Assembly: GCF_007859305.1 (NCBI RefSeq) | Contig: NZ_VOHE01000001.1 | Coordinates: 496,001 to 560,000, forward strand | Origin: Luteimonas wenzhouensis | GTDB taxonomy: Bacteria; Pseudomonadota; Gammaproteobacteria; Xanthomonadales; Xanthomonadaceae | Length of the DNA stretch: 64,000 nt | Reading direction: 5' to 3' | Part shown: one piece after another, positions 1 through 28,766 of the stretch | Position numbering within the stretch: position 1 is the first letter of the stretch | Layout of the letters: every line of letters begins with the position of its first letter | The notes under the pieces: model-generated | Seen by the model: only the letters and a program-made list of their open reading frames with translations | What the model was told of the DNA's origin: nothing | The model's database searches: none | Position numbers and translations under genes: made by a program

Positions 1-53
1 GCCGCCATTTCGACCTGCACCCGGCTCGCCGCGGGCCGGAAGGAGCGACGCCC

Positions 54-401
54 GTGACCGATGCAGCGCCCATCACCTGGGACGACTTCATGCGCGTGGA
101 CCTGCGCGTGGGCCGGATCGTCTCGGCGCGCGTGTTCGAACAGGCGCGCAAGCCGGCCTACGTGCTCGAGGTCGATTTCGGCCCCGAGATCGGCGTGCGC
201 AAGTCCAGCGCCCAGATCACTGCCCTGTACACGCCCGAGGAACTGGTCGGACGGCTGGTGGTGGGCGTGGTCAACTTCCCGCCCAGGCAGATCGGCCCCC
301 TGATGTCGCAGTGCCTGGTCACCGGCTTCCACGACGAGGCCGGCCGGGTCGCGCTGTGCGTGCCCGACCGCGAGGTGCCCCTCGGGACGCGGCTGCTGTG
401 A
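54..401 (+). CDS. csaA: CsaA-like tRNA-binding domain protein
   Basis: A 115-residue protein consisting of a single EMAP/Trbp111-type OB fold (core DLRVGRIV at residues 15-22, LVVGVVNFPPRQIGP in the middle). Family members are dimeric tRNA-binding proteins, and CsaA is reported to have chaperone or secretion-related activity; which applies here is unknown. The start is GTG at 54 with AGGAG about 9 bases upstream. The stop overlaps the GTG start of rsmA, so the two are probably translationally coupled. The 53 bases before it belong to no gene I can identify; one frame stays open to a TGA at 55-57 and could be the tail of an upstream gene. Family assignment is confident; biological role is not. 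Confidence 0.88.
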   Translation: MTDAAPITWDDFMRVDLRVGRIVSARVFEQARKPAYVLEVDFGPEIGVRKSSAQITALYTPEELVGRLVVGVVNFPPRQIGPLMSQCLVTGFHDEAGRVALCVPDREVPLGTRLL

Positions 402-1198
402 GCGGGTTCACCCGCCCGGCCAAGAAGTCGCTCGGCCAGCACTTCCTGCACGAGCGCGGCGTGGTCGAGAAGATCATCCTCGCCGTCGACCCGAAGCCCG
501 GCGACCGCCTGGTCGAGATCGGCCCGGGCCAGGGCGCGATGACCTTCCCCCTGCTCGACCGCCACGGCCGCCTGACCGCGATCGAGTTCGACCGCGACCT
601 GCTCGAACCGCTGGCGGCGGCCGCACGCGCCCACGGCGAACTGGAGCTGATCCACTCCGACGTGCTCGACGTCGATTTCACCGCACTCGCCGGCGGCACG
701 CCGCTGCGGCTGGTCGGCAACCTGCCCTACAACCTGTCCTCGCCGATCCTGTTCCACGCGCTCGATCACGCCGCCGCGATCCACGACATGCACTTCATGC
801 TGCAGAAGGAAGTGGTCGACCGCATGGCCGCCGGCCCCGGCGGCAAGACCTACGGCCGGCTGAGCGTGATGCTCCAGGCCTGGTGCGAGGTGACCGCGCT
901 GTTCACCGTGGGCCCGGGCGCCTTCCGGCCGCCGCCCAGGGTCGACTCGGCGGTGGTGCGCCTGGTCCCCCGCCCCCGCGCCAGCGTCGGCATCGCCGAC
1001 CCGGCGGGCTTCGCCGCGATCGTCCGCGACGCCTTCGGCCAGCGGCGCAAGACCCTGCGCAACGCCCTGGCCCGGTGCTGCGACGAGGCCGCGATCCGGG
1101 CCGCGGGACTTGATCCCCAGGCCCGGGCCGAACAGGTTCCCGTGGCCGGCTTCGTCCGCCTGGCCAACGTGGCCGCAGCGGCCGACCCGCCCGGGTGA
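398..1198 (+). CDS. rsmA: 16S rRNA (adenine1518/1519-N6)-dimethyltransferase RsmA (KsgA)
   Basis: Dimethylates two adjacent adenosines in helix 45 of 16S rRNA late in 30S assembly, using S-adenosylmethionine. The 266-residue protein has the family start KSLGQHFL (residues 10-17), the SAM-binding motif VEIGPGQG (39-46) and the catalytic NLPY motif (108-111). The open frame extends upstream to 311, but homology begins at the GTG at 398, which overlaps the csaA stop (GTGA), so I place the start there. The 62-base gap before apaG suggests apaG has its own promoter. The neighbourhood rsmA-apaG-apaH is conserved in gammaproteobacteria. Confidence 0.95.
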   Translation: MSGFTRPAKKSLGQHFLHERGVVEKIILAVDPKPGDRLVEIGPGQGAMTFPLLDRHGRLTAIEFDRDLLEPLAAAARAHGELELIHSDVLDVDFTALAGGTPLRLVGNLPYNLSSPILFHALDHAAAIHDMHFMLQKEVVDRMAAGPGGKTYGRLSVMLQAWCEVTALFTVGPGAFRPPPRVDSAVVRLVPRPRASVGIADPAGFAAIVRDAFGQRRKTLRNALARCCDEAAIRAAGLDPQARAEQVPVAGFVRLANVAAAADPPG

Positions 1199-1249
1199 CG
1201 GGAAACGGCGTTCCGGGGCGCGGGATGGCCGTGTTCACGGCCGGGCGAA

Positions 1250-1255
1250 TACACT
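1250..1255 (+). promoter_or_regulatory. -10-like hexamer for a leaderless apaG mRNA
   Basis: TACACT lies exactly six bases before the apaG ATG, with no Shine-Dalgarno sequence between. That spacing would put the transcription start at or next to the A of ATG. The same geometry is seen upstream of bioA, recQ and the truncated haemoglobin gene in this window. Inferred from position only; no clear -35 box. Confidence 0.4.
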
Positions 1256-1261
1256 GCCCGC

Positions 1262-1645
1262 ATGAACGAGACTGCCGACTACAGCCTTGAGATCCAGATC
1301 GCGACCCAGTTCCTGGACGAGGAGTCAGCGCCCGAGGACGACCGCTACGTGTTCGCCTACACGATCCGGATCCGCAACCTGGGGCGGCTGCCCGCGCAGC
1401 TGGTGGCCCGGCACTGGGTGATCACCGACGCCAACGGCCGGGTCGAGGAAGTGCATGGCGACGGCGTGGTGGGGGAACAGCCCCGGCTGGAACCGGGCGA
1501 GCAGTTCGTCTACACCTCCGGCGCCACCCTGCCGACCGCGGTCGGCACCATGGAAGGCAGCTACGACATGCTCGGCGACGACGGCACCCGGTTCGATGCT
1601 CCCATCCCGCCGTTCACGCTCGCCGCGCCGCGCACGCTCCACTGA
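1262..1645 (+). CDS. apaG: ApaG (Co2+/Mg2+ efflux-associated, FN3-like fold)
   Basis: A 127-residue protein matching ApaG over its whole length: a conserved beta-sandwich with ARHWVITDANG, a glycine/proline-rich turn (GEQPRLEPGEQFVYTSG) and the MEGSYDM segment. ApaG is genetically linked to cobalt resistance and magnesium homeostasis in enterobacteria, but its biochemical activity is not established. It has no signal peptide or membrane segment. It sits between rsmA and apaH as in many gammaproteobacteria, 12 bases before apaH, so apaG-apaH are probably co-transcribed. Confidence 0.95.
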   Translation: MNETADYSLEIQIATQFLDEESAPEDDRYVFAYTIRIRNLGRLPAQLVARHWVITDANGRVEEVHGDGVVGEQPRLEPGEQFVYTSGATLPTAVGTMEGSYDMLGDDGTRFDAPIPPFTLAAPRTLH

Positions 1646-1657
1646 CGGGGCGCGGGC

Positions 1658-2491
1658 ATGGCCGTCTGGGCGATCGGCGATCTGCAGGGCTGCTACGGCG
1701 CCACGCGCCGCCTGCTGGACGCGATCGCCTTCGACCCGGCGTGCGACCGGCTGTGGTTCTGCGGCGACCTGGTGAACCGCGGCGGCGAATCGCTCGAGAC
1801 CCTGCGCCTGGTGCATTCGCTGCGTGCACACGCGGTGACCGTGCTGGGCAACCACGACCTGTCGCTGCTGGCGATTGCCCAGCGCACCGAGGCCGAGCAG
1901 CGCAAGGTCAATCCCGACTTGCAGCGCGTGCTGTTCGCCGAAGACCGCGACGAACTGCTCGGCTGGCTGCAGCGGCAGCCGCTGGTGTACACCGACCGCC
2001 AGCTGGGCTGGCTGATGGTCCATGCGGGCCTGGCGCCGAAATGGACCACCCGGGCGGCCGAGCAGCACGCGCGCGAGGTCGAGCGCAAGCTCGCCGGCAG
2101 CGGCGCGCAGAAGCTGCTGCGCAACATGTACGGCGACCATCCCGCGTGGTCGCCGCGCCTGGCCGGTACCGACCGCGACCGCGCGATCATCAACGTGTTC
2201 ACGCGCATGCGCTATTGCTCCCCGCGCGGGCGCATCGCCTTCGAGGAGAAGGGGCCGCCCGGCACCCAGGCGCCGGGGCTGTACCCGTGGTTCGAGGTCC
2301 CTGGCCGGGTGGAGCGCGACCTCAAGATCGTCTGCGGACACTGGTCCTCGCTGGGCCTGTTCATCGGCCTGGGGATCCACGCGCTCGACACCGGCGCGGT
2401 CTGGGGCGGCCCGCTCACCGCGCTGCAGCTCGACGCCGGCGAACTGCGGATCGTGCAGGTGCCGGGCCGGGAAGCGCCGGGCAAGGCCTGA
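1658..2491 (+). CDS. apaH: Bis(5'-nucleosyl)-tetraphosphatase, symmetrical
   Basis: Hydrolyses Ap4A to two ADP, controlling the pool of alarmone-like dinucleotides and removing Np4-type RNA caps. The 277-residue protein carries the metallophosphatase signature in order: GDLQG (residues 7-11), GDLVNRG (36-42) and GNHD (64-67), then a downstream HAG motif for the two-metal centre. Length is normal for ApaH. It follows apaG closely and converges on folA with only four bases between the stop codons, leaving no room for a conventional terminator. Confidence 0.96.
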   Translation: MAVWAIGDLQGCYGATRRLLDAIAFDPACDRLWFCGDLVNRGGESLETLRLVHSLRAHAVTVLGNHDLSLLAIAQRTEAEQRKVNPDLQRVLFAEDRDELLGWLQRQPLVYTDRQLGWLMVHAGLAPKWTTRAAEQHAREVERKLAGSGAQKLLRNMYGDHPAWSPRLAGTDRDRAIINVFTRMRYCSPRGRIAFEEKGPPGTQAPGLYPWFEVPGRVERDLKIVCGHWSSLGLFIGLGIHALDTGAVWGGPLTALQLDAGELRIVQVPGREAPGKA

Positions 2492-3030: not shown

Positions 3031-3825
3031 TCACACCGCCACCGGCGCGCGGATCGCCGGGTGCGGTTCGTAGCCGTCGATCGCGATGTCCTCGAAGCGG
3101 AAGTCGAAGATCTCGCGCACCTCCGGGTTCAGGCGCAGCGCGGGCAGCGGGCGCGGGTCGCGCGAAAGCTGCTCGCGCGCCTGCTCGAAGTGGTTCGAGT
3201 ACAGGTGCGCGTCGCCGAGGGTGTGGACGAAGTCGCCCACGCCCAGCCCCGTCACCTGCGCCACCATGTGGGTCAGCAACGCGTAGCTGGCGATGTTGAA
3301 CGGCACCCCGAGGAAGATGTCGCCGCTGCGCTGGTAGAGCTGGCAGCTCAGCCGGCCATCGGCGACGTAGAACTGGAACATCGTGTGGCACGGCATCAGC
3401 GCCATCTCCGGCAGGTCGGCCACGTTCCAGGCACTGACCACGAGCCGGCGCGAATCGGGATTGCGCCTGATCTCCTCGACCACCCAGCGGATCTGGTCGA
3501 TCTCGCTGCCGTCGGCGGCGGCCCAGCGCCGCCACTGCTTGCCGTACACCGGGCCGAGTTCGCCATGCCCGTCGGCCCACTCGTCCCAGATCGTGACCTT
3601 GTTGTCGCGGAGGTAGGCGATGTTGGTCTCGCCCTTCAGGAACCACAGCAGTTCGTGGATGATCGATCGCAGGTGCAGCTTCTTGGTGGTGACCAGCGGG
3701 AAGCCTTCGCGCAGGTCGAAACGCATCTGCCAGCCGAACACGCTGCGGGTGCCGGTGCCGGTCCGGTCGGACTTTTCCGTGCCATGCTCGAGCACGTGGC
3801 GCAGGAGGTCGAGGTACTGCCTCAT
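3031..3825 (-). CDS. thyA: Thymidylate synthase
   Basis: Converts dUMP to dTMP with methylenetetrahydrofolate as donor. At 264 residues it has the same length as E. coli ThyA, and the catalytic cysteine falls at residue 146 in [10 protein letters not shown]. The N-terminal phosphate-binding DRTGTGT and the conserved [12 protein letters not shown] and NHFEQ segments are present. The frame is open far upstream into lgt, but the ATG at 3825 overlaps the lgt stop codon (ATGA), the clear start by homology and coupling. Cytoplasmic; second gene of lgt-thyA-folA. Confidence 0.97.
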
Positions 3826-4724
3826 GCCGCGCCTCCGGCCGCCGTCGGCTGCAGGGTCGGCGAACGGTGCGAGCGCCAGAGCAGGTACGCGCCGAGTGCG
3901 ACCAGCGGCAGCGACAGCAGTTGGCCCATGGTCAGCCAGCCGAACGCGATGTAGCCGATGTCGGCGTCGGGCACGCGCACGAATTCCACCGCGAAGCGGA
4001 ACACCCCGTAGAGCAGCGCGAACAGGCCGCTGAGCGCGTAACGCGGGCGCGGCCGGGACGAGTACCACCACAGCACGATGAACATCACCAGGCCCTCGAG
4101 GAAGGCCTGGTAGAGCTGCGAGGGATGGCGCGCGAACGCATCCAGCGCGCCGGCGGCGAACTCGGCCTGGAGCTGCTCGGCGCTGCGGCCGGCGAGCTGC
4201 GGGTCGGTGGGAAACACCACGCCCCATCCGGCCTGGGTGTACTTGCCCCACAGCTCGGCACCGATGTAGTTGCCGATCCGGCCGAAGCCCAGTCCCGGCG
4301 GCACCAGCGGCGCCACGAAGTCCATCACGTCGAAGAAATGCAGGCGCTGCCGCCGCGCCCAGATCCACGCCCCGACCAGCACGCCCAGCAGGCCGCCGTG
4401 GAAGCTCATCCCGCCGTCCCAGACCCGGACGATCATCAGCGGCTCGCGCAGGAACTCGGGCAGCGCGTAGAACAGCACGTAGCCGATGCGTCCGCCGAGC
4501 ACGACGCCCAGCATCCCGTAGAACAGCAGGTCGCCGAAGCCGTTGGCGTCGACGCCGGGCAGCCGCCCGGCCGCGATCCGCCGCCGTCCCAGCCACCACG
4601 CGGTCGCGAACGCCAGCAGGTACATGATCCCGTACCAGTGGATCGCGGGCTGGAACGTGCGCCCGAACAGCTCGAACGCGGGGAACTGGATCGCGATGGG
4701 ATCGATCTGGTGCAGGTGGATCAT
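3822..4724 (-). CDS. lgt: Phosphatidylglycerol-prolipoprotein diacylglyceryl transferase
   Basis: Integral inner-membrane enzyme that attaches diacylglycerol to the lipobox cysteine of prolipoproteins, the first step of lipoprotein maturation. The 300-residue protein has about seven hydrophobic segments, the HGG motif (His109) and the Lgt signature GRIGNYI near residue 150. An AGAGGA Shine-Dalgarno-like sequence precedes the ATG. Likely clients encoded in this window are Pal, the TPR lipoprotein at 34 kb and possibly NapB. First gene of the lgt-thyA-folA operon. Confidence 0.96.
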
Positions 4725-4818
4725 GGAGCGTCGCGTTCCTCTGCCGCCGGCCGTTCCCTATTGTGCCCGAGCCATGGCCGGCCCGCGCGCCCGCGCTGGA
4801 CCGGCCTCGCCGCCCGCG

Positions 4819-5556
4819 TCAGTAGGCCTCGCCACGCAGCCGCGCGTTGCGCTTGGCCCACAGGTTGAGCACCTCCACCAGCACCGAGAAGCCCATCGAG
4901 CCGTAGATGTAGCCCTTCGGGATGTGCACGTCGAAGCCCTCGAGCAGCAGGTAGGCGCCGATCAGCACGATGAAGGCCAGGGCCAGCATCTTGACCGTGG
5001 GGTTGGCGTCGATGAACTGGCCGAGCGGGCGCGCGGCGAGCAGCATCACCGAGACCGCGACCAGGATCGCCGCCACCATCACCGGCACGTACTCGCCGGC
5101 CATGCCCACGGCGGCGATCACCGAATCGAGCGAGAACACGATGTCGATCACCGCGATCTGCGCGATCACGCCGCCGAACGACGCTGCCGCCTTGGCCGGC
5201 ACCGACGCGTCGTGCTCGGACCCGCCCACCAGTTCGCGGATCTCCAGCGCGCCCTTCACCAGCAGGAACACGCCGCCCAGGATCAGCACCAGGTCGCGCA
5301 CCGAAATGCCCTGCCCGAGCACCATGAACAGGTCGGTAGTCAGGCTGGCCAGCCAGGCCAGGGTCAGCAGCAGCAGGATCCGGGTGATGCAGGCGACGGC
5401 GATGCCGAACTTACGCGCGAACTCGCGCCGCTCGGCGGGGAGCTTGCTGACGGCGATCGAGATGAACACCAGATTGTCGATGCCCAGCACGATCTCGATC
5501 GTGCTCAGGGTCAACAGCAGGATCCACACCTGCGGATCGCTCAACATCGCCATCAT
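4819..5556 (-). CDS. TerC family integral membrane protein
   Basis: A 245-residue multi-pass membrane protein of the TerC/Alx family. The metal-binding acidic residues of the family are visible: IEIVLGIDNLVF near the N terminus and VIDIVFSLDSVIAAVG in the middle. Family members are implicated in tellurite resistance and, more generally, metal (Mn2+) export that helps metalate exported proteins. AAGGA is nine bases before the ATG at 5556. It is preceded by dgkA with only 21 bases between, so the two are co-transcribed, and there is no room for the yybP-ykoY riboswitch that often controls such genes. Confidence 0.9.
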   Translation of the reverse strand: MMAMLSDPQVWILLLTLSTIEIVLGIDNLVFISIAVSKLPAERREFARKFGIAVACITRILLLLTLAWLASLTTDLFMVLGQGISVRDLVLILGGVFLLVKGALEIRELVGGSEHDASVPAKAAASFGGVIAQIAVIDIVFSLDSVIAAVGMAGEYVPVMVAAILVAVSVMLLAARPLGQFIDANPTVKMLALAFIVLIGAYLLLEGFDVHIPKGYIYGSMGFSVLVEVLNLWAKRNARLRGEAY

Positions 5557-17202: not shown

Positions 17203-17673
17203 TCAGGCGGCGAGCGCCTGCCGCAGCGACAGTTCGATACCGTCGATGTCGGGGATGACCGCGGGCTCGTCGTTGAACACGACCACGGCGCGCACGCCGG
17301 CCCGACCCTGCAGGTCCTCGTCGTCCAGCGCCTGCAGCCGCTCGCGCGACACCGTGACCAGGCGCGGGAAGCCGCGGCTGAGCAGGGCGAAGTACGGCAT
17401 GGTGGGCTGGCCGCCCAGGGTCTTGAGCACCACCACCTTGTGGCCAAGGCCGCCGACCTCGGCCTCGTGGCCGATCAGCGGCGCGAAGGCCACCAGTGGC
17501 AGGCGCCAGCCGCGCCAGCGGATGGTTCCGAGCAGCCAGCCGGGTGCCGACTCCACCGGCTCGGGGTCGGCGTAGGAGAGCACCTCGGAGATCGTGGCGT
17601 TGGGCAGCAGCAGCCGGGCGGCCTCGGTCTGGATCAGGACGGCGCGGATGTCGCTCGGGGTGGGCGTGGTCAT
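17203..17673 (-). CDS. CheW-like protein (ChpC-like), last gene of the Pil-Chp operon
   Basis: A 156-residue single CheW-domain protein with the conserved core LLLPNATISEVLSY, GWLLGTIRWRGWRLPLVAF and LQGRAGVRAVVVF. It could couple receptors to the ChpA kinase as an accessory adaptor besides PilI, as ChpC does in Pseudomonas. The ATG at 17673 overlaps the stop of the CheB-like gene (ATGA). The upstream extension in the same frame is non-homologous. Confidence 0.88.
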   Translation of the reverse strand: MTTPTPSDIRAVLIQTEAARLLLPNATISEVLSYADPEPVESAPGWLLGTIRWRGWRLPLVAFAPLIGHEAEVGGLGHKVVVLKTLGGQPTMPYFALLSRGFPRLVTVSRERLQALDDEDLQGRAGVRAVVVFNDEPAVIPDIDGIELSLRQALAA

Positions 17674-19265
17674 GGCTGCAGCAATCCGTTCGAATCGGTG
17701 GCCGGGACGGCGTCCGGCGGCGGCCAGCGTTGCAGGAGCCGCGCCGCCATCCCGGCCGGGGCGTCGTGGCCGGCGCCCGCGGCGATCGCCGCCTGCGCAC
17801 CGGCCGGGTCGTAGCAGCCTTCGTCCGGCGTCTGCGCCAGAAGCAGGCCCTCGTTCCACTCCGGGCCGCCCACGGCGGGCACCAGGGCGGGATCGGCGCC
17901 GCTGAGGAACAGCACCGCGCTGTCGTGCGGCGGCAGGACCGCGGCATCGAAGGCGACCGAGGCGTCGAACTGCCAGCCGCCGCGCTGGCGCAGGCCGATG
18001 CCCGGCGGCACGAAGTACACCTGCCCCGGCCGCACCTCGTGCCCGTCCTCGGCCACGCTCACCGGGGCTTGGGTGGCGCGGGACATCTGCTTGACCAGGC
18101 GGTCGTAGCGGCCACCGTCGAGCGCCAGCCGCACCAGTACCGGGCGCGCGAATCCGGCCGGGATGCCGGCCAGCAGCTGGCGCACCGCGTCGGGTCCGCC
18201 GAGGCCGGCCTCGATCACCACCGCGCCGCGCAGGGGACCATGCCCGTAGCTGTCGGGATCGGCCAGCGACAGGCCCGCGCCAAGGCTGTCCAGGTCGACC
18301 GCCGGGACGGCCGCGGCCGCCGCGCCCGGCGCTGGCGCGGGCGCCGGCGGAGCGTCGTCGTCGGCCAGGCTCAGGCTGCCGAAGTCCACCGTCGGCGCAG
18401 GCGCCGCCCCGGCAGGCTCTGCCGGCGGCGCCGCGACCGCCGGAGGCCCGTCCACGTCCGGGGCTTCGTCGGCGGCCTGCCGCAGCTGCGCGGCCAGGAA
18501 TTCCTCGATCCCGGCAACCGCTTCGGCCGCCTGTCCCGCGCGCTGGAACCGCTCCGGGTCGAAGGCCAGTTCGTCCTCGCCCGTGCCGTCGCCAGCGGCG
18601 TCCAGCGACGGCTGGGCGATGCCCGCCGCCGGGTCGTCCTGCGCCTGCGCGCTGGCCGGGTCCGGCGCATCGGCCGGGGTCGCGTCGCCCTCGTCCACGC
18701 TCCAGTGCGACACTCCGGCGGGCGGCGCCTCCCCGATCCCGGGGAACCCGCCCGCGGGGCCGTCGGACACGCTGTCGCGGGGGACCCCCTCGGCCCGCTC
18801 CTGGGCCTCACCGGTGACCGCCGCGATCGCCTGGTCGTAATCGACCCTGCCGGCGGTGGACGGCAACGGTCCCGGCGTAGGCAGGAGCACCTCGTCGGGC
18901 TCGGCACCTGCCGGCAGCACGTCGTCGTGGCGGTGCAGCTTGGCCGACAGGTGACGCAGCCAGCGCGCAGCGTCCCAGCCGGTACGCTGCGCGGCCTGCT
19001 CGGCTTCCTCGAAGATCACCATGTAGGCGGGATCGGCGAGCACGTCGGCATGCCGTTCGATCGCGTCCTCGATCGTCGGATCGAGCGCGACCAGGATCGC
19101 TTCCGGCATCGCCTGGCGCACCTCGTCGGGACCGGCCTGCATCGGGTCGGCCACCAGCACCACCTCGGCGCCGGCCTCGGCCAGCGCCTGGCTGATCCTG
19201 TCGCAGGCCTCGCCCGCGCGTGCCAGCAGCGCGACCCGCGGCGTGGCCTCAGTCCCCGCGGCCAT
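17670..19265 (-). CDS. degenerate CheB-like protein of the Pil-Chp operon (ChpB-like)
   Basis: A 531-residue protein with a vestigial receiver-like N terminus (about 1-115, without the acidic pocket), a long acidic, Ala/Pro-rich linker (about 130-340) and a C-terminal domain that aligns by eye with the CheB methylesterase. The match starts at [18 protein letters not shown] and includes [19 protein letters not shown]. In canonical CheB the first motif is GASTGG with the catalytic serine; here that position is glycine. The histidine of the QHM motif is also missing (the aligned segment reads VRLALDGG). It is therefore probably inactive as a methylesterase and may be structural or regulatory. 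Its start overlaps chpA by 17 bases. Confidence 0.75.
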
Positions 19266-22200
19266 GCCCGATCCTCAGCAGTTCGTGGACGTTGCGCATC
19301 AGCTCCGGCTCCTGGTACGGCTTGCCCAGGTAGCGGTCCACACCCAGGTCGAACGCGCGCTGGCGGTGCTTCTCGCCGGTGCGCGAGGTGATCATCATGA
19401 TCAGCACGTCGCGCAGGCGCGGGTCCGCCTTCATGTGCTTGGCCAGTTCGTAGCCGTCCATGCGCGGCATCTCGATGTCGAGCAGCATCAGGTCGGGCAC
19501 GCGCTCGTCCATCCGCTCCAGCGCGTCGAGCCCGTCCTTGGCCGTGACCACCTCGAAGTTGTGGCGTTCGAGCACGCGGCCGGTGACCTTGCGCATCGTC
19601 ACCGAGTCGTCGACCACCATCACCAGCGGCACCTTGCGCTGCTCGACCACCGGCGCCGGCGCCGCCTCGCGCGGCAGCACCGCGTGGCGGCGCACCAGCG
19701 GCGCGACGTCGAGGATCACCACGACGCTGCCGTCGCCCATGATCGTCGCACCGAAGATGCCGGGGATCGAGGCGACCTGCGGGCCGACCGGCTTCACCAC
19801 GATCTCGCGGCTGCCGATGATCGCGTCCACCGCCACCGCGGCGCGCAGTTCGCCCGAGCGCACCAGCAGCAGCGGCATCTGCAGGTGGCCTTCGGCCTTG
19901 GCCGGGCCCTGGCCGACCAGCAGGCCGAGGTCGTGCAGCGCGTAGTCCTCGCCGCCGTAGGCGTAGGCGCCGCCCCCAGCCAGGCGCCCGCGCTCGATGC
20001 GGCCGACGCCGCGGACCGAGGCGATCGGCACCGCGAAGCGGGTGTCGCCGATGCGCACGAACACCGCCTGGGTCAGCGCCAGCGTCTGCGGCAGGCGCAG
20101 GGTGAAGGTGGTGCCCTGGCCCGGGCGGGTCGTGATATCGAGCGAACCGCCGAGCTGGCGCACCTCGCTGGCGACCACGTCCATGCCCACGCCGCGGCCG
20201 GCCAGGCGGCTGACCTCGCCGGCGGTGGAGAAGCCCGGCTCGAAGATCAGCGCGTCCATGTCGCTGTCGGTGAGCGTGGCCCCCGGCCGGACCAGGCCAC
20301 GTTCCTCGGCGCGGCGGCGGATCGCGGCGCGGTCCAGGCCGGCGCCGTCGTCGCCCACCTCCAGCACCACTTCCGACCCCTCGCGGCGCACCGCGATGCG
20401 GACCGTGCCCTCCTCGCCCTTGCCGGCCCTGCGGCGCTGGTCGGGCGATTCGATGCCGTGCGCGACCGAGTTGCGCAGCATGTGCTCGAGCGGTGCGGTC
20501 ATGCGCTCGAGCACGTTGCGGTCGAGCTCGCCCTGGCTGCCTTCCAGCTTGAGCTGGACCTGCTTGCCGGTCTCCTGCGCCGACTGGCGCAGCACCCGGC
20601 GCAGGCGCGGCACCAGCGCGTCGAACGGCACCATGCGCGTGCGCATGAGGCCTTCCTGCAGGTCGGAGCTCACCCGCGACTGCTGCAGCAGCAGGGTTTC
20701 GTACTGGCGCGTGAGGTCGTCCAGGGTCTGCTGCAGGCTGGTCATGTCGGCCGCCGACTCGCCCAGCGCGCGCGAGAGCTGCTGCAGGGTCGAGAAGCGG
20801 TCGAGCTCCAGCGGATCGAAGGTGACGTCGTCGCTGTCGCCCTCGCGCTGATAGCGCGCGATGATCTGGGCTTCGGTCTCGATCTCGAGGCGGCGCAGCT
20901 GGTCGCGCAGGCGCGCGTTGGTCTGCTCCATCTCGTTCATCGCCGCGCGGAACGCGCCCAGCTGCTGCTCCAGGCGGGCGCGGTAGATCGCCACCTCGCC
21001 GGCGTAATTGACCAGCCGGTCGAGCAGGTCGGCGCGGATGCGGACCTGTTCCTGCGGCGCGCGGATCGTGGTGTCCTCCTCCGCCGGCAGCTCGGCCAGC
21101 GGAGTCGACAGCGGCGCCAGCTCCGGCCTGGCCGGCTCGGGCGCGGCGGCTTCGCCTTCCTCGCCCGCGTCCAGCAGCGGGCGGCCGCGGGCCAGCGCGT
21201 TGAAGGCGTCGACCAGGGCATGCGGCATGGCGACCGCGCGGCGCTCGCCGACCCGCGTCACCATCGCGTGCAGGCGGTCGAACCCGCCCTCGAGGAGGCC
21301 GATGCCGGTGCGATCGAGCTCGCAGCGCTGCTCGACCACCGCCTCCAGCAGCGACTCCATGGCGTGGCCCAGTTCGCCGATGCTGAACACGCCGGCCATG
21401 CGGGCGCCGCCCTTGATGGTGTGCAGGTTGCGCTGCAGGCCGATCAGCGATTCGCGCGAATCCGCATCCTGGCGCAGCTGGGCGAGCAGGCCGTCGGAGT
21501 GGTCGAGCAGGTCCCCGGCCTCCTCGACGAAGATGTCGAGCAGTTCTTCGTCCAGGCGCGAGGTATCCAGCGCCTCGTCCGGATCCTCGGCCGTGAGCAC
21601 GCGCGCCAGCAGCGCCGCCACCGCGGTATCCGCGGACGTGGCACCGGCGGCAATGCCGGTGTCCGCCTCTTCCGCGGGCGCATCCTCGCCAGGTCCGGGC
21701 TGGACGGCTTCGTCCTGCTCCCCTTCGAGGCGTTCGGCTTCGAGGCGTTCGGCTTCGAGGCGTTCGGCTTCGAGGCGTTCGGCTTCGAGGCGTTCGGCTT
21801 CGAGACGTTCGGCTTCGAGACGTTCGGCTTCGAGACGTTCGGCTTCGAGACGTTCGGCTTCGAGGCGTTCGGCTTCGAGGCGTTCGGCTTCGAGGCGTTC
21901 GGCTTCGAGGCGTTCGGCTTCGAGGCGTTCGGCTTCGAGGCGTTCGGCTTCGAGGCGTTCGGCTTCGAGACGCTCGGCTTCGAGACGCTCGGCTTCGAGG
22001 CGTTCGGCTTCGAGGCGTTCGGCTTCGAGGCGTTCGGCTTCGAGACGTTCGGCTTCGAGACGTTCGGCTTCGAGACGTTCGGCTTCGAGGCGCTCGGCTT
22101 CGAGGCGTTCGGCTTCGAGGCGTTCGGCTTCGAGACGTTCGGCTTCGAGACGTTCGGCTTCGAGGCGTTCGGCTTCGAGGCGTTCGGCTTCGAGGCGTTC

Positions 22201-25200
22201 GGTTTCGAGGCGCTCCGCTTCGCCTGCCCCGGCTTCGACCTGCGCCGGCTCGCCGCCGGCATCGTCCGCGCCCGCGTCCGGTCCGATCGCGGTCCCGGCC
22301 AGGTCCGCATATCCGCCCATGTCGATCGCGACGAGGGCGGGTACCCCGCTCTCCGGCGGCTGAGCTTCGGGGATCGCAGGCGCCCCCTCCATCGCCTCCG
22401 CGTCCACCAGCGCGGCCAGGCCGCTGGACACTTCCGGCAGGCTGTCGCGCAACGCGCCCAGCCGCTGGGCCAGCGCGTCCTGCGATGCCAGCAGCGGCGA
22501 GGGCTGCTTCAGCGTCTCCACGGTGGCGCGGACCACCGCCGCCAGATCGGCGATCGCCTCCACGCCCTCGGGGCTCGCGCTGGCGCCGGCGGCCAGCAGT
22601 CGCCGCGCGTAGTGCTCGGCCGGCGACAGCACGGTGTTGATGACCGGCACCTCGGTCATCGCGAACGCGCCATTCATGGTGTGCAGCGCCCGCAGCAGCG
22701 GATCGCTGCCGGCGGCATCGCCTGCACGCGCGGCGGCCACCCAGGCGTCCACCGTCTGCAGGTGGCCGTTGACCTCGGCGTCGAGGATCTCCAGCAGCAA
22801 GGGGTCGATCTTGGCCGGGACCGCGTCGAGCGGCTCGCCCGCCTCGGCCAGCGGGACCGGTTCGCCCTGGACCGGTGCATCGCCGGCCATCGCGGCGGGG
22901 GCGTCGGCCAGCGCGACCGGCTCCGGCGGCATGATGTCCTCGCCCCCCGCGATGCGGTCGGCAGCCTCTTCCAGCGGGGCGAGGTCGGTTGCCAGGCCGC
23001 GCTCGCCGCGCAATGCCGCCTGCAGTTCCGGCAGCGTGTAAAAGGCGCGGTCGACCATCGCGATCACCGCCTCGCTCGGCGGGCGCGACCCGTCGAGCAC
23101 GCGGTTGAGCATGTTCTCGATCTTCCAGCTGAACTCGCCGAGCATGCGCGCACCGACCAGGCGGCCACTGCCCTTGAGCGTGTGGAACACGCGCCGGATC
23201 GGCCGCAGCCGCTCCATGTCGTCCGGCTTGGTGCGCCAGTGCGGCAGCAGCGAATCGAGGTTGTCGATCTCCTCGGCGAACTCCTCGAGGAAGACCTCGC
23301 GGATCTCCTCGTCGATCTCCTCGCCCACGGTCTCGAATCCGCCGACCACCGGCCCGGCCGGGGCGGCCGGCACGGGAGCGGGGGCGGGCTCGGCCTCGTG
23401 CGACGGTGCCGCGGTGGCGGGCGCCTGGGCGATGGCGGGCGCTTCGACCGCCGCGGCCGGTTCGTCGTCTCCGCCCACGGGAACGCCGGTTGCGGCGGGA
23501 GCGACGGGGCCGGCCGCCTCGCCGGCCTGCGTGGCCGGGACGGCCGGCGCGACACCCGCCGACACAGTCGCGGGCGGCGGCGCGGCGGCCGGCGCCTGCA
23601 CCGGCTCGGGTAGCGGCCAGTAGCCCAGCGCCTCGAGGCTGTTGCGGGCGATGTCCAGGATCTCGTCGCGGTTGCCGCGCTGGTCGCGCAGGGCCTCGAG
23701 GTAGTACTCGAGGCTGGCGAGCGCATCGGCCAGCGTGTCGAGCTGGCGGCCGTTGGGCACGCGCTGGCGCGCGATCAGCTCGTTCTCCGTGTAGCGGCCG
23801 ACCGCCACCAGGTAGTCCGCCGCCAGCGTGAGTTCCATCATCCGCAGGGCGCCCGAGACCTCATGCAGCAGGCGCGGCACCTCGGACAGCTGCTCGTGCT
23901 GCCAGCTGGTCTCGACGAAGGCGACCAGCGCCTGGCGCGCCTGGACAAAGTTGGCGATCGCTTCGCGGACGATGGTGTCCACGACCTGGCGGGTCTCGCC
24001 GGCGAACAGTTCGTTGTCGGCGGTACGGCCCTGCTCGCCGGCGCCGAGCCTGGCGACCTGGTCGTCCAGCGTGGCGTCGACGTAGAGCAGCGCCCCGGCG
24101 ACGTCGAGCAGCGCATCCTCGTTGGCAGCAACGCTGCCGTCGAGGATGGCGTACATGGCGTCGCGCTGCTGCTGCACCACCTTGCGCGCCACGCCCAGGC
24201 CGAGCATGCCCAGGGTGTCGGCGACCCGGCCGAGCGTCTCGGCATGCGGCTGCAGCGCGGCCAGGTCGGTCGAACCGGTGCGCAGGTGCAGGTCGAGCGC
24301 GTCCTTGACGTGCAGCAGGTCGTCCTTCACCGCGGCCGACACGGTGTCGAGCAGCGCGCGGTTGCGGCCGCTGATGCTGCCGCGCGCGTGCTCCAGCTCG
24401 GACTGGGTGGGCAACGCCGCGTCCAGCTCGAACACGCGCCGCAGCTCCTGCAGCGCCGGATGGCCGCCGTCTTCGGCGTGGGCGACATGGTAGAGCAGCT
24501 GGCGGGTGGGCTCCTGCGCCGCCTCGCCCCGCACCTCGGCGAAGCCGTCGTGGTCCTGCAGGCCGTGGCGGGCCTCGCGCTCGACCCCGGCGAAAACCTT
24601 GCGCAGCGCGGCGGTCGGCGCCAGTGCGCCGTCGGCGATCGCGCGCGCCACGTTCGAGGCCACCCACAGCATCCGCCGCACAGGCACCTGGCGCACGTGC
24701 GGCAGCAATGCATCGATGGCCGGGGCCAACGGCGCCAGCGCCGTGCCCGGGCCGTCGTCCTGCCAGCCCGCGAGCGCGCGCTGCAGCGCCTCGAGCAGCG
24801 GCTGGCTGTCGTCGTTGGACGCGGGCGCCAGGCCTTCGGTCACCGCCCCCGGGAGCGGCCGCTCCAGGTCGGGCGAGAACAGTACGCTCTCGCTCAGCCC
24901 GCTCTCGCCACGGGTGGCGCGCAGCTCGTTGAGCAGCGGCAGCAGCACGATCGGGATGTCGCGGTGTCCGCTCTGCAGGCGCTCGAGGTAGTCGGGCAGC
25001 AGCACGATGCCGCGCAGCAGTGCGGCGCAGGCGGCATCGCGGTCGGCGATGGCGCCGCCGTGCAGCGCCAGCGCGACCTGCTCCATCTCCTCGGCTACCA
25101 TCGCCGGGGCGTACAGCTCGACCATGCGCAGGGTGCCCTGCACCTGGTGCAGGTAGCCGGCGCACAGCCGCATCCGGGCCACGTCGGACTGGTCCTCGAC

Positions 25201-25305
25201 GTAGTCCTCGAGCTCGGCCTTGGCCAGGCGCAGGGTCTCGTCGAGCTCGGGCTTGATCCAGCCGAGCGCGGTGTGTTCGAGTGCTTCGCGCAGCGCGGTC
25301 GTCAT
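19249..25305 (-). CDS. chpA: ChpA/PilL hybrid chemotaxis histidine kinase with a pentapeptide array
   Basis: The 2018-residue CheA-type kinase of the type IV pilus chemosensory system. It has N-terminal degenerate Hpt-like modules (His53 in HQVQGTLRM, about His481 in HEVSGALRM), then clearer Hpt domains with His708 (HTLKGSG), His875 (HTMNGAF) and His1295 (HTIKGGARM). A dimerisation region, a HATPase domain (N box about 1612, GRGVGMDVV about 1707), a CheW-like domain and a C-terminal receiver with Asp1943 follow. Between the Hpt domains at 875 and 1295, residues 1031-1195 are 33 tandem copies of ERLEA. It autophosphorylates and passes phosphate to PilG and PilH, controlling pilus extension and retraction. 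The start follows pilJ by 78 bases; the stop overlaps the CheB-like gene. Confidence 0.94.
21721..22215 (-). repeat. 33 x 15-bp in-frame tandem repeat inside chpA
   Basis: Thirty-three contiguous 15-base units, minus-strand consensus GAACGCCTCGAAGCC, each encoding ERLEA. Internal units differ only at synonymous positions (Arg CGC/CGT, Glu GAA/GAG). Only the terminal units change the peptide (ERLET at the N-terminal end, ERLEG at the C-terminal end). Blocks of variant units recur (compare 21781-21900 with 22021-22200), suggesting multi-unit duplication. The period is a multiple of three, so unit gain or loss stays in frame. Confidence 0.97.
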
Positions 25306-25383: not shown

Positions 25384-27405
25384 TCAGGCCGGCAGCTTGA
25401 AGTCGGCGACCGAACGGCGCAGGTTGGCGGCCAGTTGCGCCAGGTTCCCAATCGACTGCGCGGTCTGGTTCGCGCCCTGCGAGGTCTGCGCGGTAATCGA
25501 CTGGATCGTGTTCATCGTCGCGGTGATGTCGCTGGCCGCCTCGGACTGCTGCTTGGCCGCGCTGGAGATCCCGAGAATCAGGTTCGCCAGGTTGCTCGAC
25601 ACGTTCTCGATCTCGCCCAGCGCGGTTCCCGCGTCCTCGGCCAGGCGGGCGCCGGCCACCACCTCGGAGGTGGTCTGCTCCATCGAGCTCACCGCCTCGT
25701 TGGTGTCAGACTGAATCGTCTGCACCAGGGTCTCGATCCGCTTGGTCGCGTTGGACGCGCGTTCGGCGAGTCGCTGCACTTCGTCGGCCACCACCGCGAA
25801 GCCGCGGCCCGCCTCGCCCGCCGATGCCGCCTGGATGGCCGCGTTCAGCGCGAGGATGTTGGTCTGCTCGGAGATGTCGTTGATCAGTTCGACGATCGAG
25901 CCGATCTCCTGCGAGCTTTCGCCCAGGCGCTTGATGCGCTTGGAGGTTTCCTGGATCTGGTCGCGGATCGAGTCCATGCCGGCGATCGTCTCGCGCACCA
26001 CGCCCGCGCCCTTGGTCGCGATCTGCACCGAGCGCTGCGCCACGTCGGCCGACTCGGCGGAGTTGCGCGACACCTGGTCAATGCTCTGCGCGATTTCGGT
26101 GATCCGGTTCGACGCCGAGGTGATCTCCTGGGCCTGGTGCTCGGCGGCCTCGGCCAGGTGCATGGCCGTGGCCTGGGTCTCCTGGGCGCTGGAGGCCACC
26201 TGCACCGAGGTCTCGTTGATCGTGCCCACCAGCTCGCGCAGGTTCTCGACCGCGAAGTTGATCGAGTCGGCGATCGCGCCGGTCATGTCCTCGGTGACGG
26301 TCGCCCGCACCGTGAGGTCGTTCTCCGCGAGCGCGCCGATCTCGTCCAGCAGGCGCATGATCGCCTCCTGGTTGCGGTTGTTGAGCTCCATCGTGTCTTC
26401 GTAGCGCTTGCGCTGGGCGCGGTTGAGCGACCAGAGCAGGCCGGCGACCGAGAGCAGCGCGAGCAGGCCGCTGACGATGCTGATCCAGACGTTGCCCAGC
26501 ACGCTGGTGTCCTTGAGCGAACCGAACGCGGTGAGGGCGGCGAACAGCGACTGGCTGTCGGCCAGCAACTGGTCGGAACCGGCGGTCAGGCTGGCCGACG
26601 CGGCCTGGGCCTGGAACAGCGCCGGGGCGCTGGCGATGATCGCGTCCAGGTCGGTCTTCATCCCGGCCCAGCGTTCAGCGGCCTGGTTCAGCGCCGCGAT
26701 CGCGCCACCGTTGGTCAGGGCCTGCACGTTGAGGTCCTGGTCGCCTTCGCGCAGGCCCTCGAGCACCTGCTCGAACACGCCCACGTCGCGCGCCAGCGCG
26801 TCGCCGGCGATCGCCGCCACCGGACCGCCGGCCTGGATCTCGGCCACGCGGCGGGCCATGTTGCCGGCGAGCACGTTCTGGCGCAGGGCGATGTAGACCT
26901 GCGAGGCCGGGGAACCGCTCGAGGACATCGCGCGCACCAGTTCGTCGAGCTGCGCCTGCAGCTGCGGCACCGCCTGGGTGAAGCTGCCGGCGTTGGCGGC
27001 GAAGCCGCTCACCGCCTGCTCGCTGGCGGCGATCTGCTCGGCGCTGGCGGCCAGCGGCGTCCAGGTCTCGGTCACGGTGCGGATCGGGCCGGCCACGCCG
27101 GCGGTATCGCCGAAGTTGGCGTTGAGCTGCTGGATAGCGCCGTCGATCTCGGCCTTGGTCTGGCGGAACGCGGCGAACGCCCCGGCGTCGCCGGCCACCG
27201 CTTCCCGGCCCTGGTTGGCCAGGCGCTGCGAGTTCACCTGCAGGCTCGAGGCGGCGGTGCTGGCGCCGCCCAGCCGGGCCGCCTTCCACCCGGCGTACCC
27301 GGTGTTGGCGCCGAAGACCACGAGCGTGGTGACCAGCGCCGCGATCCAGAAGTTGCTTCCCAGGCCGCGCCCCTTGCCGGCGATCGTGTCGACTACTGTG
27401 CTCAT
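25384..27405 (-). CDS. pilJ: Type IV pilus methyl-accepting chemotaxis protein PilJ
   Basis: The 673-residue inner-membrane chemoreceptor of the Pil-Chp system, close in size to the Pseudomonas protein. TM1 is about residues 18-36, followed by a large helical periplasmic domain (about 40-305), TM2 (about 308-328), a HAMP-like region, and the cytoplasmic signalling hairpin with [27 protein letters not shown] split across the tip. It probably senses pilin or surface contact and signals through PilI to ChpA. It lies between pilI and chpA with no pilK (CheR) gene in the usual place after it. Confidence 0.95.
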
Positions 27406-27442: not shown

Positions 27443-27982
27443 TCAGGCCGCCGCTTGTCTGAATTCCGGCGTGCGCGCCAGCCTGGCCAGGCTGAACACG
27501 CCCCACGTGTGGTCGGCGAGCCGGTAGGCCCGCTCGACGAAATGCGCGTAGCGGCCCCGCGCGAACGCTGCGGGGTCCACCTGTTGGCCCTCCTGGAAGC
27601 TGCGCTGGCCGAACAGCTCGTCGATGGTGACCGCGACGTCGCCGTCGGGCTGGCGCACGATCAGCACCCGCTGGGTCTCGTGCAGCACGGTGCGCTCGCC
27701 CTCGAGGAACTGCTTGAGGTCCACGATCGGCAGCAGGTTGCCGCGCACGTTGCCCACGCCGAGCATCCACGACTGCGCCCCCGGCACCGGCGTGATCGGC
27801 GGCAGCGGCAGGATCTCCACCACTTCGTTGAACGCCGACGCGAGGCGGTAGTCGCCGATGCGATAGCCCACGCCGCGCCACAGGCCCGGCGCGTCGAACT
27901 GCTCGGGTACGCCGGCAACGTGCGCGAGGCTGCGCTGCTCGTAGTCGAGCAGCATCGCGAACGGGTCGCGCACCGCGTTCAT
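27443..27982 (-). CDS. pilI: CheW-like adaptor PilI
   Basis: A 179-residue single CheW-domain protein that couples PilJ to the ChpA kinase. Recognisable features are the N-terminal [18 protein letters not shown], the core [37 protein letters not shown] and a conserved Arg-containing C-terminal half. The true start is the ATG at 27982, which overlaps the pilH stop (ATGA); the longer frame upstream is not homologous. Followed after 37 bases by pilJ. Confidence 0.94.
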
Positions 27983-28350
27983 CCCGCCGCTTCCAGCAGG
28001 CGATCGATCTCGCCCAGCAGGACGTCTTCCTTCGGCGGCTTGACCAGGTAGCCCTTGGCCCCCTGGCGCATGCCCCAGGCCTGGTCGGTCTCCATGCCCT
28101 TGGTGCTGACGATCAGCACCGGGATGTCCTTGGTCTCGGCGTCGCGGCCCAGTGCGCGCGTGGCCTGGAATCCGTTCATGCCCGGCAGCACGACATCCAT
28201 CAGCACCAGGTGCGGCTTCTCGCGCCTGCACAGCTCGATGCCGTCCTCGGCGTTGCTCGACGCCAGCACCTCGTGGCCGTGCCGTTCAAGCAGCTGGGTC
28301 AGCACCGCGGTGTCGGTCGGAGAGTCCTCGATGATCAGGATGCGGGCCAT
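27979..28350 (-). CDS. pilH: Twitching motility response regulator PilH
   Basis: A 123-residue single-domain CheY-like receiver. It has acidic residues at ILIIEDSPTD, phospho-acceptor Asp52 in HLVLMDVVLPGMNG and Lys104 in LVKPP. In the Pseudomonas model PilH promotes pilus retraction or acts as a phosphate sink for ChpA. It lies 14 bases downstream of pilG and overlaps pilI by four bases. Confidence 0.95.
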   Translation of the reverse strand: MARILIIEDSPTDTAVLTQLLERHGHEVLASSNAEDGIELCRREKPHLVLMDVVLPGMNGFQATRALGRDAETKDIPVLIVSTKGMETDQAWGMRQGAKGYLVKPPKEDVLLGEIDRLLEAAG

Positions 28351-28364
28351 GGCGGTTCCCCCTT

Positions 28365-28766
28365 TCACGCCTTGACATGGGTACGGATCGCGTCGAGGAG
28401 TTCCTCGCGCGTGAATGGCTTGGTGACGTACTGCTCGGAGCCGACGATGCGGCCACGCGCCTTGTCGAACAGACCGTCCTTGGACGACAGCATGATGACC
28501 GGCGTGTTCTTGAACAGCTGGTTGTTCTTGATCAGGGCGCAGGTCTGGTAGCCGTCCAGGCGCGGCATCATGATGTCGACGAAGATGATCTGCGGCTTCT
28601 GGTCGGCGATCTTGGCCAGCGCCTCGAAGCCGTCGACGGCGGTCACCACGTCGGCGCCCTCGCGCTTGAGCAGGGTTTCCGCGGTGCGCCGGATGGTCTT
28701 CGAGTCGTCGATCACCATCACCCGCAGGCCATCGAGGCTGGCAGCGCGGCTGTCGTCTTGCGTCAT
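28365..28766 (-). CDS. pilG: Twitching motility response regulator PilG
   Basis: A 133-residue single-domain receiver with the acidic pair Asp20-Asp21 (VMVIDDSKTIRR), phospho-acceptor Asp64 (IIFVDIMMP) and Lys116 (YVTKPF). PilG is the output regulator that promotes pilus extension and cAMP signalling in Pseudomonas. It is the first gene of the seven-gene operon and lies about 50 bases downstream of a strong sigma-70-like promoter. Divergent from gshB, the arrangement conserved with Pseudomonas. Confidence 0.96.
   Translation of the reverse strand: MTQDDSRAASLDGLRVMVIDDSKTIRRTAETLLKREGADVVTAVDGFEALAKIADQKPQIIFVDIMMPRLDGYQTCALIKNNQLFKNTPVIMLSSKDGLFDKARGRIVGSEQYVTKPFTREELLDAIRTHVKA

Follow-up and report, generated by a model that had tools for sequence, protein, structure and literature searches.

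A ChpA-type pilus chemosensory kinase encoded in the window (the whole 64,000-nucleotide stretch of Luteimonas wenzhouensis DNA analyzed here) carries a long run of ERLEA pentapeptides between two of its Hpt phosphotransfer domains. The sequence-only reading of this DNA had described 33 copies, internal units that differ only synonymously, and an Hpt domain on either side. Translation and TRF give exactly 33 pentads at the residues it assigned (Table 1), the 31 internal ERLEA units fall into four DNA kinds (19, 9, 2, and 1 copies) that differ at two sites, both synonymous, and the array is flanked by one His motif of the Hpt type at residue 875 and another at residue 1295, all as described. 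TRF delimits the array as 21723–22222 (period 15, 33.3 copies, 96% matches) with a score of 881, against 70 for the next best of its 11 rows; an array of this kind cannot be a product of chance. Because the 15-bp unit is always in frame, unit changes alter length only, which rules out an on/off phase-variable contingency locus. A pentapeptide-repeat protein (PF00805) is likewise ruled out, as this family is not among the five that Pfam gives for the kinase. The copy number is as assembled in a 20-contig draft genome; the longest exact repeat inside the array is 104 bases, an N is present inside the array of the nearest relative, and the contigs of three relatives (G010, G006, and G004) break off in or at their arrays.

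The architecture of the kinase is that of a Tfp-class CheA (ChpA). Pfam finds Hpt (three stretches), H-kinase_dim, HATPase_c, CheW, and Response_reg in the one protein, which contains five Hpt-like His motifs, and genes for an MCP, a CheW protein, a response regulator, and a CheB protein adjoin the kinase gene. The Pil-Chp kinase ChpA of Pseudomonas aeruginosa is similar in its multiple Hpt domains, HATPase, CheW, and receiver, and in the MCP, CheW, CheB, and response regulator genes beside it. The available text of two descriptions of that protein mentions no array (PMC12632253; PMC10782961), and that of the second does not contain the word "repeat", a distinction that is drawn from descriptions rather than from sequence. 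In the open-licence literature searched, judged by title, no report of the array and no functional data on the protein were found. Among the 25 NCBIfam matches listed for the kinase, no model scores above cut-off, and megablast of the 3 kb upstream of the array gave no match to plasmid records. The domain preceding the array, Hpt4, is modeled by AlphaFold2 (AF2) as helices with block pLDDT values of 95–98, and its His is invariant across a 32-row alignment.

Table 1. Features of the kinase gene and its neighborhood, in window coordinates; neighboring genes are named by position, and Hpt4 and Hpt5 are names given here.
Feature	Residues	Coordinates	Strand	Basis
Gene of the ChpA-type kinase for pilus chemosensing (2018 aa)		19249..25305	-	translation, Pfam
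Hpt stretch with best Pfam match (His 708)	667-757	23035..23307	-	Pfam
Hpt4, Hpt-like helical domain before rod	846-955	22441..22770	-	His motif
Predicted disordered hinge, N-terminal to rod	961-1026	22228..22425	-	AF2, pLDDT mostly <50
Predicted unbroken alpha-helix, 166 residues	1027-1192	21730..22227	-	AF2 model (H183-348)
15-bp minisatellite, 33 units (ERLET, 31 x ERLEA, ERLEG)	1031-1195	21721..22215	-	translation, TRF
Predicted disordered hinge, C-terminal to rod	1193-1222	21640..21729	-	AF2, pLDDT mostly <50
Hpt5, Hpt domain after rod (His motif residue 1295)	1223-1372	21190..21639	-	motif, alignment, AF2
HATPase_c and CheW domains	1605-1873	19687..20493	-	Pfam
Receiver domain, C-terminal	1895-2006	19288..19623	-	Pfam
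CheB-like methylesterase gene, downstream (ChpB position)		17670..19265	-	Pfam CheB_methylest
MCP receptor gene, upstream (PilJ position)		25384..27405	-	Pfam MCPsignal
CheW-like coupling protein (PilI position)	CheW at ORF residues 120-253	27443..28231	-	Pfam
Response regulator, single-domain (PilG/PilH type)		28365..28766	-	Response_reg

The predicted structure of the array is a single helix with disordered hinges at both ends. In the AF2 model, the pLDDT of 10-residue blocks is 81–95 over most of the helix and 62 and 55 at its two ends; AF2 tends towards helix for sequences of this type. The model of the same linker in G011, a relative that lacks an array, is mostly of low confidence. The array holds 32 E(i)–R(i+3) pairs and equally many R(i)–E(i+4) pairs, the contacts that the sequence-only reading had invoked for a single charged helix, and no E(i)–R(i+4) pair. 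Leu occurs four or five times in each of the seven heptad registers, and the hendecad registers are also even, so the array has no hydrophobic seam. A heptad coiled coil, which the five-residue period had already been said not to fit, is ruled out by hydrophobic residues that do not gather at a and d, and a single helix remains the predicted fold. If the arrays instead associated as a bundle or coiled coil, the segment would serve to oligomerize or cluster the kinase array and would not be a monomeric spacer. Such association could draw on the uncharged 40% of residues, which are almost entirely Leu or Ala, and published peptides with helical repeats rich in Arg or Ala have aggregated, according to the available text of PMC5812594; however, the even registers, together with a net charge of −33 that works against self-association, make it very improbable. 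A phmmer search of the PDB for a solved relative of the array region returned 10 sequences at E values up to 1, the best of which, a collagen VI chain (2.9e-6), we take to be a compositional match.

Like the SAH (ER/K, CSAH) domains of proteins such as myosins, the array is predicted to be a long, continuous Glu/Arg-rich single helix that joins domains as a spacer; residues three and four positions apart carry opposite charges along its whole length, and a hydrophobic seam is absent. It differs in that it is a perfect five-residue tandem unit with Leu and Ala, lacks E(i)–R(i+4) pairs, has a net charge of −1 per unit, and is encoded by a minisatellite in a bacterial chemosensory kinase. In addition, 60% of its residues are charged (two Glu and one Arg in every five), below the roughly 80% charged or Asn/Gln residues given for SAH domains in the available text of PMC5812594, and it is therefore called SAH-like rather than filed as an SAH domain. 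At 166 residues, the predicted helix is far longer than an average SAH domain, about 75 residues, and approaches the longest one in myosins, at about 200 (PMC5378345, in the text available). We read the array as a probable single-α-helix-like spacer, leaner in charge than classic SAHs and tolerant of length change. Provided that the segment is helical, its contour is near 25 nm, as had been calculated. By analogy with published ER/K helices, such a rod would also bend: those of 10–30 nm have end-to-end distances of about 7–22 nm, and as linkers they hold domains apart and determine their effective concentration (PMC5552854, in the text available).

The array is not peculiar to this strain. Pentad arrays are present in 61 of the 124 ChpA genes read, two of them (G040 and G057) with Arg-free arrays; the sample takes in those matching family genomes whose frames reach 1800 residues (all but 21 of 117) and, from a set of 31, all but the fragment G007. 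Among the 119 genes with a usable anchor, 59 carry an array before the same Hpt domain, 53 of these between both Hpt anchors and six without an upstream anchor. Among the 80 listed of 107 array-pattern matches, 55 share at least 50 5-mers with this ChpA and the remaining 25 share at most 10. The tree was built from 119 of the 124 genes, G004, G024, G026, and G091 being left out for want of the Hpt5 anchor motif and G078 for a C-flank that is too short; G004 and G091 carry arrays. In this tree, whose outgroup rows do not lie on one side of a branch, 52 of the 60 rows of one clade (local support 95, FastTree) have an array, and array presence requires 11 label changes, where shuffled labels need 40 on average. 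Arrays outside this clade suggest further origins. The eight clade rows scored as array-less are varied: the contig of G010 ends inside an array, G080 has Ns and another E/R/Q/A-rich repeat, G134 and G074 have degenerate E/R/A-rich sequence, G038 has a 12-residue repeat, and G032 is short, whereas G011 and G008, relatives in the same genus, are clear losses. The array is an old trait of the clade whose units have turned over recently, rather than a recent invention, which changes the picture of recent multi-unit expansion proposed earlier.

Across genes, E1, R2, E4, and A5 of the unit are kept and position 3 drifts among Leu, Ala, Val, and Ile. Between adjacent units, pN/pS is 0.09 at E1, 0.42 at R2, 1.19 at position 3, 0.23 at E4, and 0.45 at A5, from about 1,900 units in 57–61 genes with array limits set blind to the position under study; pS values above 1 at Glu codons are an effect of site counting and saturation. 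The conserved positions and the free third position argue for selection on the charge pattern. Selection on the peptide, which had been read from the window alone, is visible only in this comparison, because no more than two sites are polymorphic within the window's array itself. We consider it reasonably probable that the in-frame minisatellite folds, as predicted, into a single-α-helix-like rod that spaces groups of Hpt domains, with the charge pattern kept by selection. Such a five-residue, lean-charge helix pattern could be useful in protein engineering wherever a spacer of defined length is wanted.

In the 95 proteins that have both anchors and no X, array linkers were compared with array-less ones. 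Median length is 352 residues with an array and 370 without (p = 0.27), and all linkers are net negative (−113 to −31 and −152 to −24, respectively), with lower acidity per residue in array linkers (p = 7e-8). The shared length distribution and net negative charge favor the alternative in which length and acidity are all that counts, with the segment as an interchangeable long acidic linker whose helicity is incidental to slippage of an E/R/L/A-coding run, and so do the unrelated short repeats, for example EVEP, TEAE, DT, and AAAAE, at the same site in other lineages. This alternative is possible but rather unlikely, as acidity alone would not demand the conserved Arg or the hold on four of five positions, and array linkers are richer in helix formers (0.78 versus 0.53) and poorer in Pro plus Gly (0.055 versus 0.114). 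Because the array raises neither the length nor the acidity of the linker, the rod is dispensable over evolution; since array-less relatives keep an equally long, acidic linker, it is also not a requirement of ChpA, the helix is not a universal ruler, and the ancestral job of the linker was probably that of a long acidic spacer. The helix is one clade's way of building this old spacer; the 60-row clade probably rebuilt it as a helix and so extended it.

Array length spans 10–98 units in 51 linkers with no sign of an optimum, and a fixed reach between phosphotransfer domains is thus not conserved. Among pairs of genes with downstream identity of 99% or more, which are not independent of one another, the linkers of 14 of the 20 differing pairs differ by a multiple of five residues and those of six do not; at 97% identity or above, this holds for 24 of 57 differing pairs, or 23 of 51 where both carry arrays, and nine pairs have linkers of equal length, several of which look like duplicate records. 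Taken as a whole, the sequence-only interpretation is partly supported: the single-helix reading, selection on the peptide, and whole-unit changes of copy number among close relatives are upheld, whereas the views on the age of the array and on its reach are changed or unsupported. Its further suggestion, a copy-number contingency locus in which slippage alters the length of the rod among the cells of a population and so adjusts how strains sense through their pili, is in keeping with near-identical genes that differ by 1, 2, 18, 19, and 33 units, among others, and with the 11 arrays, of 13 examined, in which neighboring units resemble each other more than units drawn at random do. We nevertheless regard it as unlikely: no phenotype is linked to array length, which shows no optimum, some length differences may be assembly artifacts, not all differences are whole units, and 15-bp units allow no on/off switching.

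In the spacer reading that we prefer, the rod would likely keep the N-terminal Hpt module at a distance from both the kinase core and the last Hpt domain, with the two Hpt groups apart yet tethered. Phosphoryl groups would then pass between the groups not by direct contact but via the receiver domain or regulators of the PilG/PilH type. As the rod ends are predicted to be disordered, helix phase is probably not passed on; the hinges would make it irrelevant, so that slippage or unequal recombination could add and delete units harmlessly, with changes that break the charge pattern removed. A natural, evolvable spacer, in which slippage in 0.75-nm helical steps makes strains differ in the reach and effective concentration between distal and proximal phosphotransfer domains, and in which rods of at least 25 nm allow a kinase to transfer in trans to neighbors in the chemoreceptor lattice, is an unlikely extension. 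The clade provides a natural series of probably helical spacers of varied length between the same two signaling-kinase domains, with apparently disordered counterparts in sister lineages. Because natural length variants exist, it is directly testable what ChpA needs its many Hpt domains and its long linkers for, and whether the flow of phosphoryl groups is set by how long or how stiff a linker is.

Two other systems resemble this linker. Domain II of TolA is also a spacer whose length and helicity depend on clade, and proline-rich sequences can take its position (PMC12204202, in the text available), in a periplasmic force transducer rather than a phosphorelay linker. The Lysobacter ChpA repeat (EAERLEAERLAAEQA type) lies in the same linker of the same gene and has the same E-R-x-E core; it differs in its higher-order 15-residue unit with AEQ pentads. 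A non-pathogenic relative that twitches is Lysobacter enzymogenes OH11, a soil bacterium whose twitching is described as T4P-based (PMC7277350). The ChpA linker seems to switch between disorder and helix through replacement of its short tandem repeat.

The pentad array in the ChpA-type kinase is confirmed. It comprises ERLET, 31 copies of ERLEA and ERLEG, in that order, with copy number as assembled in a 3.44-Mb draft genome of 20 contigs. Its coordinates and count of 33 are exactly those of the sequence-only reading, which also correctly described the internal units as differing only synonymously: the 31 internal DNA units fall into four types that are distinguished by two synonymous sites. 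TRF returns a score of 881, a period of 15 and 96% matches. The sole other match to the array in its own genome is an 89-base stretch in a gene that, judged by eye, resembles a TonB/TolA-type energy transducer. On the strand opposite the kinase gene, a long open frame also spans the array and is probably a by-product of high GC content.

Coordinates of the kinase gene, its array and other stretches discussed
Feature	Location	Strand	Description
ChpA-type kinase gene	19249-25305	minus	2018 residues encoded
Pentad array	21721-22215	minus	residues 1031-1195, n=33
Antisense open frame	19243-23613	plus	1456 codons
89-base match in own genome	G000:C16:37350-37438; L002 1501-1589		78% identity, E/R/A-rich
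L106, Psychromonas marina	2-688		FtsY-type, SRP54_N
L168, Pseudoalteromonas aurantia	3222-5228		FtsY-type, SRP54_N + SRP54
L165, Granulosicoccaceae MAG	1021-2313		TonB C terminus, ~38 ERxEx units

Pfam assigns to the kinase Hpt domains (three stretches), H-kinase_dim, HATPase_c, CheW and a receiver domain. Hpt-type His motifs are found at residues 53, 481, 708, 875 and 1295, the final two belonging to Hpt4 and Hpt5, which bracket the array. The same-strand neighbours of the gene encode an MCP, a CheW-like protein, a single-domain response regulator and a CheB-like methylesterase; this layout is that of a Pil-Chp system, and gene names are given by layout.

With an input alignment of 32 sequences, AlphaFold2 predicts residues 1027-1192 as an unbroken helix, most 10-residue blocks having pLDDT values of 81-95 and the ends 62 and 55. 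Low-confidence stretches flank the predicted helix on both sides, with well-predicted helical domains further out. In G011, a relative without an array, pLDDT over the same linker is mostly below 50; a single 50-residue helix there scores 54-86. The leucines of the array are spread evenly over all heptad and hendecad registers (order parameter 0.016 at 100 degrees). Charges pair as E(i)-R(i+3) and R(i)-E(i+4), 32 times each, no E(i)-R(i+4) pairs being found along the array, and the net charge is -33. The predicted structure, the even registers and the charge pairs make a single helix, as had been proposed from sequence, the likely state of the array. Compared with the SAH domains surveyed in PMC5812594, the array is single-helix-like, yet leaner in charge (60%); in the same paper, Arg- or Ala-rich model repeats are described as having aggregated.

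Evidence for selection on the peptide comes from differences between neighbouring units, the limits of each array having been defined without reference to the position under test. From 1,880-2,042 units per position, which are not independent of one another, pN/pS is 0.09 at E1 (57 genes; below 1 in 55 of 55 genes with a formable ratio), 0.42 at R2 (60 genes; 55/58), 1.19 at position 3 (61 genes; 15/52), 0.23 at E4 (58 genes; 53/54) and 0.45 at A5 (60 genes; 42/52). This is the pattern that would be predicted for a helix with paired charges in which one apolar position is left free. The earlier claim of selection thus holds for the 57-61 genes compared, but not from the window's array alone, which has two polymorphic sites.

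ChpA C-termini are present in all 31 genomes (own among them) and in 117 of 119 family genomes (E up to 1e-150). Of 124 ChpA genes, read completely or in part, 61 carry a pentad array (pentad score of at least 30), those of G040 and G057 being Arg-free. A usable Hpt5 anchor is present in 119 of the genes, and in 59 of these an array precedes it, lying between the Hpt4 and Hpt5 anchors in 53 and accompanied by an unrecognised Hpt4 anchor in 6; no array occurs elsewhere in these 119 genes. In a FastTree tree of 119 rows, one clade (local support 95) holds 60 rows, of which 52 bear an array; the array label requires 11 changes, 9 of them imposed by branches with good support, versus 40 in shuffles. 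G011 and G008, which share the genus code of the window's genome, have lost it. The arrays that fall elsewhere in the tree (G118 and G043, G075 and G108, G055, G040, G057) point to independent origins at this one site. In place of an array, other family members have EVEP, TEAE, DT or AAAAE repeats there, or non-repetitive acidic sequence; these unrelated short tandem repeats were seen in the ChpA linkers of G132, G105 (L281, L283), G102 (L251), G062 (L256) and G008 (L049). New minisatellites seem to arise readily at this linker site. When the array region served as a protein query, 117 of the best 120 of 1536 matches score at least 30 for tandem period, mostly of the ERLEA type or a 15-residue Lysobacter type, a list biased to array bearers because the query contained the array.

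Across 13 arrays that share the genus code of the window's genome, differences per 15 bases between units are 2.67 within an array versus 3.35 between genomes, and adjacent units are closer than random pairs in 11 of the 13. In G002, the nearest relative, 12 units of the array can be counted; they belong to three DNA types, all of which also occur in the window's array, so the types probably predate the split. The comparison of copy number among relatives that the sequence-only reading proposed yields mostly whole-unit changes: among gene pairs with a downstream identity of 99% or more, linker lengths differ by a multiple of five in 14 of 20 differing pairs. Single alignment gaps of 90 and 95 residues separate protein P0010 from P0020 and P0021, although this group derives from ENA assemblies of unknown kind and assembly error may lie behind the differences; single gaps of 160 and 5 residues are seen between G003 and P0032. 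Four Lysobacter enzymogenes proteins have gap runs of 5, 10 and 15 residues, plus others of 1-3, 6 and 13, and longest contigs of 5.9-6.4 Mb suggest that their genomes are complete. Contigs G010:C5, G006:C108 and G004:C26 stop in or at the array and the G002 array holds N, so draft genomes may misstate array length.

The predicted rod could set the reach between phosphotransfer domains, and changes in copy number might tune pilus chemosensing, as the sequence-only reading suggested. With a helix persistence length of 15 nm and a scaling law for the span of disordered chains, the computed rms span is ~19.5 nm for a 24.75-nm helix versus ~11 nm for 165 disordered residues. Against such a ruler, Hpt4-Hpt5 linkers do not differ in length between 51 array-bearing and 44 other proteins (medians 352 vs 370, p = 0.27), both groups are acidic (median net charge -65 vs -93), and arrays range from 10 to 98 units. 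Array-bearing linkers are less acidic per residue (p = 7e-8), richer in helix formers (0.78 vs 0.53) and poorer in P+G (0.055 vs 0.114). Equal length and shared acidity point to a long acidic spacer as the family-wide constant, which this clade probably turned helical. The rod would hold Hpt5 and the core at a distance from the N-terminal Hpt module, both sides tethered by flexible hinges, so that exchange might proceed via diffusible or receiver domains. According to PMC5552854, ER/K helices with contours of 10-30 nm span ~7-22 nm end to end, and the effective concentration of linked partners falls from 10 uM to 100 nM as they lengthen. In the kinase, the effect of rod length on effective concentration may be no more than gradual, and this would account for the freedom in unit number.

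An exact search for six pentads matching the pattern, run over a collection of 84,980 species genomes, gave 107 stretches; among the 80 listed, 55 are ChpA by shared 5-mers and 25 are others. Pfam was run on ten of these 25, and four gave nothing above its cut-off. In L106 and L168, ERLEA-type pentad arrays precede the N domain. In addition to these and L165, L090 has a pentapeptide-repeat match, L138 has such a match with FHA, and L096 has DUF4388. These varied domains indicate that the pattern recurs in several unrelated proteins.
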